In this document: in pieces, positions 11,077 through 21,748 of the stretch
Layout: each line of letters begins with the position of its first letter
Numbering within the stretch: position 1 is the stretch's first letter
Origin: an uncultured Bermanella sp.
GTDB lineage: Bacteria; Pseudomonadota; Gammaproteobacteria; Pseudomonadales; Oceanobacteraceae
Assembly (NCBI GenBank): GCA_913058575.1
Contig: CAJXRF010000043.1
Span: forward strand, 1 to 50,141
Length of the DNA stretch: 50,141 nt
Direction: 5' to 3'
Position numbers and translations under genes: made by a program
Notes under the pieces: model-generated
Seen by the model: the letters and a program-made list of their open reading frames with translations, nothing else
What the model was told of the DNA's origin: nothing
Database searches by the model: none

Positions 11077-12075
11077 TTATAAGTCGAACTTCACTTTATC
11101 CACTAACTTTAATGCTGCTTTTCTTTGGGCTGCCACTTGATTTAGAGCAATAGTATCCGCTTTGAAGTCTCCCCAGCTCTGTACCAATTTAGAAGGAGCC
11201 ACTCCAGGCTTAACTGGGTATTCCATATTTAGCTCGCTATACATGGCTTGTGCTTTGTCTGAGCTTAGGAAACTTAGTAGTTTCAAAGCTGCATCTTTAT
11301 GAGGAGCATGTTTGGCTATGACGGCACCTGACACGTTTATATGAGAGCCGCGGTCTTGTTGGTTAGGAAAGTTTAGCTCAACAGAATCTGCCCAAACTTT
11401 TTGTTTGTCATCCATTAGCATTTTGCCAAAGTAGTAGCTGTTGCCTAAAGAGATGTCGCACAAGCCAGAGTTAATGGCTTTCACTTGGCCACGGTCATTG
11501 CCTTGTGGCTTGCGGGCTAGGTTATTTTTAACGCCAGTTAACCATTGCTCGGTTTGATCAACACCATCATGCGCGATCATGGAGGCAATTAAACCTAAGT
11601 TGTAAGGGTGCTTACCACTGCGCGTACAGATTTTGCCTTTGTATTTGGCACTGGATAAATCTTCATAACGAATGTTCAGCTTACCCACACGCTCTTTAGA
11701 GCTATAAATGTTTCGTACTCGCTTGGTCAGTGCTACCCATTGACGGTCTTCATCGCGAAATTGTGAAGGGATGTTGCTTTGTATTAGGCTGTCTTTATCA
11801 AATGCTTGAGTGAGGCCCTGATCTTTTAAATCTAATAACTTAGAAAAATCAGAGGTTAATACCACGTCGGCTGGGCTTAATTTACCTTCACGTTTAATGC
11901 GTTGAATCAGGCCTTTTTTAGCAAAAATAACTTCGCTTTTAATGCCGGTTTCTTTGGTGAATTCATCAAGAATCGGTTGAATTAAGAAGTTCTGGCGAAA
12001 GGAATAAACATTAACGGTTTCAGCCATCGCTTGATGGCATATGGCTAGAAAGCCCAGTACAACAAGAATACGCAT
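11077..12075 (-). CDS. fbpA: Ferric iron ABC transporter periplasmic binding protein
   Basis: A 332-residue periplasmic iron-binding protein of the transferrin-like FbpA/FutA class. The signal peptide is about residues 1-18 (cut after AMA). The mature start ETVNVYSFRQ and the segment GLCDISLGNSYYFGKM hold the tyrosine pair that coordinates Fe(III) in this family. RSGKHPYNLGL and GAVIAKHAPHKDAALKLLSFLSS are also typical. First gene of the operon; a perfect Fur box lies 23-37 bases ahead of the ATG, so the operon should be repressed by iron-loaded Fur. Confidence 0.92.
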   Translation of the reverse strand: MRILVVLGFLAICHQAMAETVNVYSFRQNFLIQPILDEFTKETGIKSEVIFAKKGLIQRIKREGKLSPADVVLTSDFSKLLDLKDQGLTQAFDKDSLIQSNIPSQFRDEDRQWVALTKRVRNIYSSKERVGKLNIRYEDLSSAKYKGKICTRSGKHPYNLGLIASMIAHDGVDQTEQWLTGVKNNLARKPQGNDRGQVKAINSGLCDISLGNSYYFGKMLMDDKQKVWADSVELNFPNQQDRGSHINVSGAVIAKHAPHKDAALKLLSFLSSDKAQAMYSELNMEYPVKPGVAPSKLVQSWGDFKADTIALNQVAAQRKAALKLVDKVKFDL

Positions 12076-12097: not shown

Positions 12098-12112
12098 TGA
12101 TAATGATTATCA
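12098..12112 (-). promoter_or_regulatory. Fur box upstream of fbpABC
   Basis: The 15 bases TGATAATGATTATCA are a perfect 7-1-7 inverted repeat, identical to the core Fur recognition pattern TGATAAT-N-ATTATCA. The centre lies about 30 bases upstream of the fbpA start, where it would overlap the promoter. Iron repression of fbpABC is the natural inference. Confidence 0.93.
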
Positions 12113-12216
12113 TCTTAGCATAGGCTTTAATCAGTAAAAAGGCACTTAAGTGCAAATTTATGTAAGTCTTGATGCGTATCAAGGCATACATTCAGTGAGG
12201 CTAAATAAAGAGCTAT

Positions 12217-12370
12217 TTAGCTGGTTTCGTTGGCCTGTAAGGCGCTGATGTGTTCAATTAGCTGGGTTCAATTTAACTGGTTTCGTTGGCTTGTAAGGCG
12301 CTGATATGTTCAATTAGCTGGGTTCAATTTAACTGGTTTCGTTGGCTTGTAAGGCGCTTATATGCTCTAT
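12217..12370. repeat. Three tandem 56-bp repeats copying the 3' end of the cyclase gene
   Basis: Three copies in 56-base register begin at 12217, 12273 and 12329. The 12329 copy is the real end of the cyclase gene. On the minus strand each copy reads IEHISALQANETS followed by TAA. Copies at 12217 and 12273 are nearly identical to each other. The genic copy differs from them at several codon third positions and in its upstream part. The two extra copies lie after the stop codon and are not part of the frame. Confidence 0.9.
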
Positions 12371-13690
12371 CTGACGTTCAATTAAGGCTTGGTAATTGGA
12401 GGTTAAGTGCTCTGCCCAAAAGGTTTCAATTATTTGTTCGGGCTGGCTGCCTTGCATGCTCTGACTGGCATTTAAAATGAGCTGTCCTCCTAACCGGCCC
12501 TGATCGACCACCTGCTTACTGACCAATAAACGGTTAACTTCGCTTTTGCGACACAAGCGTGCTGCCACATGAATGGCATCACCAATGGCGGTGTAGGTGA
12601 GGGTGTCTTTGTCGCCAAAGGTACCGGCTAAAATATTGCCTGTGTGTAGCCCTAGCTGAAACTCAACCACGGGCAATGATTGCTCAAGGCGTTGCTTATT
12701 AAATTGTTTTAACAACCCCACAATTAGCAACGCAGTACACACCCCATGAAAGCAGTCTTTTTCATCTTGCTGGGGAATGCCAAATAACACCATGACACCA
12801 TCTCCCACGTACTTATCCACATTTCCGTTATATAGGCGCGCCGCTTGGTGAATAAAGAAATAATACTGGTTTAAGAGGGCGGCCAGTTCTTGTGGAGACA
12901 GAACCTTTTGAGCGTATTGAAAATCTACAAAATCAATAAACAGTATGGCGGCATGGGCATAAGTGTCGGGCAATTGCGGCTGCTGATAGTTAAGGCTTTG
13001 GTCATTGTTTACATTGGGTGTCATGAAATGATTAAGGGCCTGGTGCATGGCAAGGCTTGAGCTTTGCTGATCTTTGTAGCGTTTAATTTCCTTGCTTAAG
13101 CGAGCAAGCTCTCCCCAGTGATGGCTATGCTGGTTTCTATCCAGAGCGTCTAAAGATTGAATGTCTTCACTGCTTTGTTCAATTTTGATGCCTAGCTTCT
13201 TGCCTGCAAACCAACCAACCACCCCAGCCACGATGGAAAACAGCAAACTAAGTATGCCCCATAGCCCATAAATTTTTTGAATGGCGTGATTAAGCGGGGT
13301 TTCATCAATGCGTACTTCTAAAAGGCCAATCACTTCATTTTGATATTGAATACTCATGGGCTGGCCAGCGTCATTATTTGCTTGGCCTTGTTCGGCAATA
13401 ACATGATTGTCTAAATCATATACCGCGCTATAGCGAATATGAGGGTGCTCAACTAGCGTTGTTAGAATAACGTTAAGACTTAATAGGTCTTGGCTGAAGA
13501 TGGCGTCAGAAGCTTGTACGCTGGCTTGCCTGCTAAGCGTGTTACGCAGTTGCAGGGCTTGTTGCTCTAGCTGATGTGTTGCTGCGCGGGTAATCGGCAG
13601 CGCCACGATCAAGCTGGCTAAAATACTTAGGGCAAGGCTAAAAAATAAAACTCGGTATCTAAAGGGCCAATTTTGTTGTTGTAATGTCAT
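12329..13690 (-). CDS. Membrane-bound class III adenylate/guanylate cyclase
   Basis: A 453-residue protein with an N-terminal membrane segment (about 12-34), an extracytoplasmic region of roughly 100 residues, a second membrane segment (about 142-161) and a C-terminal class III nucleotide cyclase domain (about 240-400). FIDFVDF carries metal-binding Asp253; VDKYVGDGVMVLFG carries Lys293 and the second metal Asp297; GDAIHVAAR keeps the catalytic Arg378. The usual catalytic Asn four residues before this Arg is His374. It would make cAMP (or cGMP) in response to an envelope signal. The ORF can start at a TTG four codons earlier; ATG is preferred. The last 13 codons are repeated twice downstream. 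Confidence 0.85.
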   Translation of the reverse strand: MTLQQQNWPFRYRVLFFSLALSILASLIVALPITRAATHQLEQQALQLRNTLSRQASVQASDAIFSQDLLSLNVILTTLVEHPHIRYSAVYDLDNHVIAEQGQANNDAGQPMSIQYQNEVIGLLEVRIDETPLNHAIQKIYGLWGILSLLFSIVAGVVGWFAGKKLGIKIEQSSEDIQSLDALDRNQHSHHWGELARLSKEIKRYKDQQSSSLAMHQALNHFMTPNVNNDQSLNYQQPQLPDTYAHAAILFIDFVDFQYAQKVLSPQELAALLNQYYFFIHQAARLYNGNVDKYVGDGVMVLFGIPQQDEKDCFHGVCTALLIVGLLKQFNKQRLEQSLPVVEFQLGLHTGNILAGTFGDKDTLTYTAIGDAIHVAARLCRKSEVNRLLVSKQVVDQGRLGGQLILNASQSMQGSQPEQIIETFWAEHLTSNYQALIERQIEHISALQANETS

Positions 13691-13955
13691 GGCGTACTGC
13701 AAATTATAATAGTGAGATAACGAGACATAATATCGGTAAATTCCACTGGCTCATATGGCGCTATGGTTATAAGTAAGTGAGTTGTTTAACAGTTTTGTTA
13801 TATATACTGATAATTAAGTCGAGTAAATAATGGCTTAATTGCTAAATTGTTTGAGCTGGATTCTCAAAAATGCCTTGAAATGGTTTATCATTACGCCGCT
13901 TTGGATAGGCCCCTGCCGTTTCCTTCTTTAGTTTTAATATCAAATAGGTGAAATC

Positions 13956-20942: not shown

Positions 20943-21515
20943 ATGGCGAACTTCTCAACCAACGAATTTAAATCTGGTCTTAAAGTGATGTTAGAAGGGG
21001 ACCCGTGTTCCATTCTTGAAAACGAACTGGTTAAACCAGGTAAGGGCCAAGCTTTTAGTCGTGTAAAACTGCGCAACCTTAAAACGGGCCGTGTTTGGGA
21101 GCGTACCTTTAAGTCGGGTGAAAAACTGGAAGGTGCGGATGTCATGGAATATGACATGGAATACTTATACACCGACGGTGAGTTCTTTCACTTCATGGCC
21201 ACAGATGGTTCGTTTGAGCAATTTGGTGCGCCAGTTGATGCAGTAGGCGAGACGAAAAACTGGTTAAAAGAGCAAGAGAAATATGAAGTGACCTTGTTTA
21301 ATGGTGAACCTATTGCGGTTGCCGCCCCTAACTTTGTCGATCTTGAAGTGGTTGAAACCGATCCTGGTTTAAAAGGCGACACTGCCCAAGGTGGCTCTAA
21401 ACCAGCTTATCTAACAACAGGCGCCATGGTTCGTGTGCCTTTGTTTATCAATATTGGTGAAGTATTACGTATTGATACCCGTACTGGTGAATATGTATCA
21501 CGCGCCAAAGGCTAA
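20943..21515 (+). CDS. efp: Elongation factor P
   Basis: A 190-residue translation factor that enters the E site and rescues ribosomes stalled at polyproline. The first domain carries VKPGKGQAF, with Lys34 at the expected tip position for beta-lysylation by EpmA/EpmB. The two OB domains follow, ending in the conserved [22 protein letters not shown]. The ATG is placed by similarity to the family start [10 protein letters not shown]; a terminator-like hairpin follows the stop. Confidence 0.97.
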
Positions 21516-21562: not shown

Positions 21563-21610
21563 AAAGCCCAAAAAGAGCTTGTTATAAAACAAGATATTTT
21601 TGGGCTTTTT
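21563..21610 (+). terminator. Terminator downstream of efp
   Basis: An outer stem AAAGCCCAAAAA / TTTTTGGGCTTT encloses an inner stem CTTGTT / AACAAG, and T residues continue the 3' arm. It begins 48 bases after the efp stop. It directly abuts the 51-bp repeat array. Confidence 0.75.
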
Positions 21611-21748
21611 ATGTTCAGGATGAACGGTATAACGCGATGCCAAGGAAGGCAAAGAGCGTATATGTTCAGGGTGAACGGTCTAAAGCAGTGCCAAGGAAGG
21701 CAAAGAGCGTATGTGTTCAGGGTGAACGGTCTAAAGCAGTGCAGTTAA
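21611..21748 (+). repeat. 51-bp tandem repeat array (2.6 copies) that is open as a 45-residue ORF
   Basis: Copies begin at 21612, 21663 and 21714, period exactly 51 bases; the third stops after about 30 bases. Each copy contains the short palindrome GTTCAggGTGAAC (or its variant). Because 51 is 17 codons, the array also reads from ATG 21611 to TAA 21748 as repeats of MFRVNGLKQCQGRQRAY. The second and third copies are closer to each other than to the first. No ribosome binding site is visible, since the preceding bases are the T-tract of the efp terminator, so translation is doubtful. Confidence 0.85.

Follow-up and report, generated by a model that had tools for sequence, protein, structure and literature searches.

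Why does the coding end of a gene recur twice beyond its own stop codon, and how have the copies come to differ in their DNA while encoding the same residues? Both questions are raised by a class III adenylate/guanylate cyclase gene on the minus strand of the window, by which we mean the whole stretch of 50,141 nucleotides analysed here. The gene occupies positions 12329..13702 as an open reading frame of 457 aa counted from a mechanical TTG start (Pfam Guanylate_cyc, E 9.5e-15, residues 247-403); translation may in fact begin at an ATG four codons in.

Three copies of the cyclase gene end lie head to tail

The 3' terminus of the cyclase gene reads ATAGAGCATATAAGCGCCTTACAAGCCAACGAAACCAGTTAA (minus strand), and window positions 12217-12370 hold three 42-nt copies of IEHISALQANETS-stop on that strand, 56 nt apart. 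Copy 1 (12329-12370) is the genic end itself, the IEHISALQANETS codons plus TAA; copy 2 (12273-12314, 42 nt) encodes the same 13 residues and stop and has no private difference; and copy 3 (12217-12258), the distal one, has three private synonymous differences. Two identical 14-nt linkers, ATTGAACCCAGCTA, occupy 12315-12328 and 12259-12272 of the minus strand, one before each downstream copy. Tandem Repeats Finder (TRF) reports the locus as 12215-12364, with a period of 56, 2.7 copies, 95% matches and a score of 272, and a separate repeat search gave copy spacings of 56 and 56, so that the units are adjacent, head to tail and constantly spaced, as in a tandem duplication or minisatellite. An earlier note on this DNA had described three gene-end copies in exact 56-bp steps past the stop codon, all encoding the same 13 residues; coordinates and spacing are confirmed, and each copy does translate to IEHISALQANETS-stop. 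The array was found once in its own genome, with no second place.

The same note had stated that the genic copy differs from the others at third codon positions, which is right but incomplete, as the two downstream copies are themselves distinct at three third positions. Copies 1 and 2 are separated by three differences, copies 2 and 3 by three others and copies 1 and 3 by six, all of them synonymous. Copy 2 agrees with copy 3 at ATT, GAA and ATC and with copy 1 at CAT, CAA and AGT, an intermediate position that fits a stepwise series, or else a hybrid of copies 3 and 1, the hybrid being clean only on condition that the CAC of copy 3 is a later change. At the first two codon differences (ATA/ATT and GAG/GAA), a 12-nt deletion between ATTGAAC-like repeats could take the place of substitution; should the opening two codons of copies 2 and 3 have been taken in this way from the ATTGAA upstream, the silent differences fall from six to four firm ones. 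On the 3' side of copy 3 the sequence is ATAGCTC and not ATTGAACC, the ungapped match being AT only, although a 7-nt gap would lengthen it.

The spacers are probably shortened gene ends

Each 14-nt linker, taken with the next base, reads ATTGAACCCAGCTAA, which equals the first 7 plus the last 8 bases of copy 3; no other copy gives this match. A prefix-plus-suffix match of this kind to copy 3 arose in 0 of 200,000 shuffles, and in 164 of 200,000 when ATTGAAC was held fixed. What looks like a 14-nt spacer is therefore probably a truncated gene end (I E P S stop), a mini end that would lie at 12314..12328 on the minus strand, with one base in common with copy 2, and again, in identical form, at 12258..12272. 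It may have arisen in one unit through an in-frame deletion of 27 nt between a pair of GAA triplets, together with one base change. If the linkers are mini ends, the array reads full-mini-full-mini-full and has no real spacer. Its joints (TAA, then TTGAAC) are similar to TTAATTGAAC, which the gene itself carries a few codons upstream.

We also considered the linker as decayed upstream coding sequence (IERQ), but the score of 15 was equalled by 390 of 5000 shuffles, and this reading is weaker than that of a mini end. Exact matches to the linker motif TTGAASCCAGCTAA are found twice at the cyclase and once downstream of the acyl-CoA dehydrogenase gene; allowing at most one mismatch, there are 11 sites in the genome, against 1 for a backward control. 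Eight of these sites carry one mismatch, and we do not claim a mobile motif.

Same-genus relatives carry a single copy

Each of eight same-genus genomes holds a relative of the cyclase, 41 to 70% identical (the match in G008 being partial), and the closest is 70% identical in protein; across species, one copy stands against three. The copy-number comparison that the earlier note had called for was run on these genomes: in all eight, the 441 to 800 nt downstream of the cyclase relative contain no second copy of its end, with top scores of 7 to 10.5 against 34.5 here. A single copy and an unrelated spacer in relatives, the outcome named beforehand as refuting, is what was found, and it argues against an old, selected element, not against duplication. 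Judged against these eight relatives, the array is seen only in this lineage; it would have multiplied in 56-nt blocks and is most likely without function. In the relatives L002 and L003, the spacer after the cyclase gene carries GC-rich repeats (GTACGAGGCC...TGGCCGA) where the window has the array.

Downstream of the array in the window lies an extracellular solute-binding gene (11077..12075, minus strand, read as an open reading frame; Pfam SBP_bac_6, E 2.4e-14), here called fbp-like after the name given in the earlier note. It is preceded by a palindrome, GATAATGATTATCATC, read in the sequence at 12099..12114 (minus strand), outside the array, a putative Fur box. By eye, an fbp-like gene and a similar palindrome follow the cyclase in seven of the eight relatives, and other sequence follows it in L009.

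A role as an RNA or DNA element is unsupported

The earlier note had proposed selection on the repeat as an mRNA 3' or DNA element, and such an element could be an mRNA 3' end, a terminator or a part of the fbp promoter region. In its favour, a 22-nt inverted repeat extends across the stop codon of copy 3: the hairpin GCTAAATA-GCTCTT-TATTTAGC (12200..12221, minus strand) is paired in the predicted fold and is a possible old transcript end. However, the terminator prediction called none at the array, the RNA fold of the array has a z of -0.36, with 64 of 200 shuffles at least as stable, and an Rfam search of the array returned no match. Furthermore, the Fur-box-like site is some 100 nt away from the array and has a similar counterpart in relatives that lack the array, and the array itself is absent from all eight. 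The proposed selection finds no support: none of the eight relatives has a second copy, and the fold is no better than that of shuffles. We see no grounds for a function as RNA or DNA element and consider this explanation very improbable. Translation of copies 2 and 3 was also rejected: their frame runs back four codons to a TGA without an ATG, GTG or TTG, leaving no start codon between the nearest upstream stop and the copies.

Other gene ends of this genome are echoed downstream

The recurrence of gene ends was surveyed in 2,292,164 of the 5,719,961 bases of the genome, comprising the window and 119 further stretches (40 pieces once joined). The last 150 nt of each of 1944 mechanical open reading frames of at least 90 aa were compared with the next 800 nt, and up to 5,832 mismatched pairs of gene end and downstream sequence, three per gene with near neighbours skipped, served as the control. 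Twelve of the 1944 gene ends exceeded the threshold and none of the control pairs did; the cyclase array is thus a repeat and not a chance likeness. Nine of the twelve are in-register copies, which we call echoes, and the other three (C6, C16 and C22) look like tandem paralogues. The nine genes encode an amidase, an acyl-CoA dehydrogenase, MoeA, a NarK-type transporter, GcvH, a YaiI family protein, the cyclase, NarI and a molybdopterin oxidoreductase. Eight of the nine echoes reach the stop codon within one base; in the molybdopterin oxidoreductase echo the ungapped match ends 10 nt short, and the register goes on to a stop. Taken singly, the cyclase array is an ordinary locus; the pattern is unusual.

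Some echoes have visibly decayed. That of the acyl-CoA dehydrogenase has a stop and four amino-acid changes, and by eye the MoeA and GcvH echoes have deletions further up, of 1 nt and 2 nt, respectively. We had taken the GcvH echo as proof of displacement, its terminator being unrepeated, but withdrew this on finding a similar inverted repeat about 105 to 116 nt beyond the echo. An idea about frame was also dropped: the offsets of the first five arrays (56, 149, 86, 89 and 149) are all 2 mod 3, but over the nine echo loci this holds for six, the exceptions being 142 and 88 (1 mod 3) and 96 (0). Of 1928 gene starts, eight matched above threshold, two right at the start codon and a third paralogue-like. 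An excess of 3' over 5' echoes is not claimed (9 against 2 or 3, P 0.065 or 0.15). In one relative, G004, 346 gene ends were scanned with different scoring, a sample too small for a comparison of rates, and matches were found only inside one recent 500-nt duplication.

Two further observations concern the genes involved. Nitrate or molybdenum-cofactor functions account for four of the nine genes with echoes: NarI, MoeA, the NarK type and the molybdopterin oxidoreductase (L045:239-928, L149:1697-2932, L049:10007-11482 and L174:5422-7692). The gene-start echoes lie upstream of the genes at L066:487-1524 and L115:2986-6621, and in the one before a 1211-aa open reading frame the differences are mostly silent.

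The spread of echoes over unrelated genes bears on another explanation, in which the array is the footprint of a since-lost mobile element that integrated at gene 3' ends and carried its own copy of the end (attL/attR). In its favour, elements that integrate in this way can swap gene ends with silent differences. However, given that only 14 nt separate the copies, with no element or integrase gene between them, that neither 72,556 plasmid nor 50,697 phage records match positions 12200-12420, that a search of viral contigs with a degenerate pattern of the end was negative, and that echoes are found at unrelated genes, we find such an origin hardly credible.

Silent differences and the case against free drift

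Under an equal-rate null, in which an echo starts out non-coding and mutations accumulate at the same pace on both branches, about 58-60% of the differences from its gene should be nonsynonymous; a more lenient null places half of the differences on the gene. For the count, codon blocks were placed by eye and each locus contributed a single echo, so that the sum omits the second type of amidase unit as well as the remaining cyclase and NarI copies. Pooled over the nine loci, 46 differences are synonymous and 14 nonsynonymous, one of the latter, in MoeA, adjoining a 1-nt deletion (P=5e-8 against duplication followed by drift, 0.012 under the lenient null). Without the cyclase the counts are 40 and 14 (P=2e-6), and with its four firm differences they are 44 and 14 (P=2e-7). 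Taken singly, four of the nine loci (amidase, acyl-CoA dehydrogenase, NarK and cyclase) fall below 0.05 under the equal-rate null and none does under the lenient one. At the cyclase, where the silent-only pattern was tested after being noticed, P is 0.0025 for six silent differences of six, 0.021 for four of four, 0.057 for six under the lenient null and, by hand, 0.15 (0.62 to the fourth) for four under the lenient null. The cyclase locus alone is moderate evidence against drift (P 0.0025 to 0.15). That most of the divergence arose at the coding position is supported by the pooled loci, and the cyclase locus on its own does no more than suggest it.

These counts bear most directly on a history of slippage duplication and ordinary drift, in which the silent-only pattern reflects luck together with purifying selection on the genic copy. 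Changes in the genic copy must be silent anyway, and it is by placing half of the differences there that the lenient values of 0.057 and 0.15 are reached. Tandem repeats are also common here, with 31 TRF rows of period at least 20 in 1.23 Mb of this genome; the YaiI family gene end is repeated together with its spacer and looks like a plain duplication, and several echoes are visibly decayed, as described above. Against this, drift predicts about 60% nonsynonymous differences, whereas we found none in six at the cyclase and 14 in 60 over the nine loci, and the echoes are about as near to relatives as the gene is. We regard drift as an unlikely account, albeit one that deserves real weight. Of the replication slippage with later drift that the earlier note had offered, slippage survives as part of the best fit, while free drift is moderately disfavoured at the cyclase locus.

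Distances of echoes and genes to relatives

Identity to relatives is close to equal for echo and gene at the loci compared: 0.696 for the NarK echo and 0.683 for its gene (nine homologous loci, one of them a paralogue from the same genome), 0.691 and 0.686 for GcvH (eight loci), and 0.636 and 0.642 for MoeA (five of seven loci, two that do not cover the end having been dropped). For the cyclase, copy 3 scores 0.659 and copy 1 0.675 against three of the eight relatives, the other ends being too different. On these sequence comparisons, the echoes are on average no further than the gene from the relatives' genes, and no donor allele or intermediate came to light among the relatives compared. At the sites where echo and gene differ, outgroups agree with echo and gene in ratios of 3:2 and 6:2 for NarK, 4:1, 2:2 and 3:2 for MoeA, and 2:0 and 0:1 for GcvH; at the six cyclase sites, agreement with the gene and with copy 3 is 2:2 (L002), 4:1 (L003) and 2:3 (L004). 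An impression that the gcvH of G004 is nearer to the echo than to the gene was not upheld, with 39 of 57 for both.

The amidase array

The amidase array consists of 149-nt units of two allele types, five synonymous changes apart, in the order genic A, B, B, A-like, A-like, and the 59-nt spacers between the copies are identical. It occupies L040 1-718, at the start of contig 4 of G000, and runs to the contig start; its far end likely lies at the end of contig 108 (L214 and L215), which we assign to the array by inference. There, one more identical spacer is followed by a last copy that is B-like at four of the five sites and has a stop codon by two C-to-T changes, and a clearly diverged spacer comes after it. 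The amidase array is the clearest case: read in this way, its inner part is homogeneous save for silent differences and its far edge decays. The pattern fits a turnover that refreshes inner copies from the genic end, together with a second allele brought in.

Allele variants of a mixed population could also have been joined in tandem during assembly. Two other arrays, on C4 and C9, lie at contig ends where the assembly broke, so a mixed-strain assembly is possible at those two. However, the cyclase array is internal to its contig of 50 kb, both mini ends are structured and do not differ from each other, and other echoes are visibly decayed; we consider an artefact at the cyclase quite improbable.

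A model for gene-end echoes

We lean, a little beyond an even balance, towards a local tandem duplication of the cyclase gene end followed by exchange, in which the copies either once served as the coding end or came from a diverged allele and have no function of their own. In a first step, a copy of the end would have been joined just after the stop codon, probably at a short match of the stop region (TTAA) to TTAATTGAAC. The 56-nt block of full and mini end would then have multiplied by unequal crossing-over or slippage, to which the exact spacing and the identical mini ends point. Most of the silent differences would have arisen while the sequence was a working gene end, by either of two routes: copies may take turns at the genic position, or the genic end may have been replaced by a diverged allele that came from a different lineage, with the older end staying downstream. 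The recurrence of echoes at other gene ends of this genome and the pooled counts favour such a coding-end history. Gene conversion or slippage had been put forward in the earlier note, and slippage duplication combined with exchange between copies is indeed what fits best.

A more far-reaching version is tentative, and we would not expect it to hold: echo arrays would be a running record of past end alleles, in which exchange between lineages replaces the end, older ends shift downstream, rotation maintains protein identity and usable spare ends are stored. If echoes are displaced alleles, they are small recombination records of single genes that can be read in one genome with no need for a strain collection, and allele replacement and array turnover could be measured from them. 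Should they be nothing more than drifted duplications, the locus is ordinary, silent-only differences over 42 nt being weak evidence alone.

Duplication followed by exchange can be set beside several known systems. Like a bacterial minisatellite or VNTR, the array has head-to-tail units of fixed length at one locus and a single copy in relatives; in contrast, the end of a gene, stop codon included, forms part of the cyclase unit, and its copies differ at silent sites only. Rhs and CdiA genes are known for displaced (orphan) C-terminal tips, in which an old gene end likewise lies downstream of a new one, whereas the cyclase copies are identical in protein and entail no change of specificity. 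Homology-facilitated illegitimate recombination (HFIR) and the formation of merodiploids by transformation could place a diverged allele next to what is left of the old one. The transformation-made merodiploids are of another size, however, with duplications of about 100 to 900 kb in one report (PMC3784515), against 42-nt copies here. A narrow literature search found no work on silent-only gene-end arrays by title or the start of the abstract, which does not imply that they are unpublished.

Other repeats were noticed in this genome. A 366-nt unit is repeated 3.8 times within a long open reading frame at L102:798-2191. In the window, positions 21610-21742 hold 2.6 copies of a 51-nt unit with the palindrome GTTCAGGGTGAAC, in the spacer after the open reading frame 20943-21515, and a unit resembling it at L101:6698-6794 suggests a dispersed repeat family.
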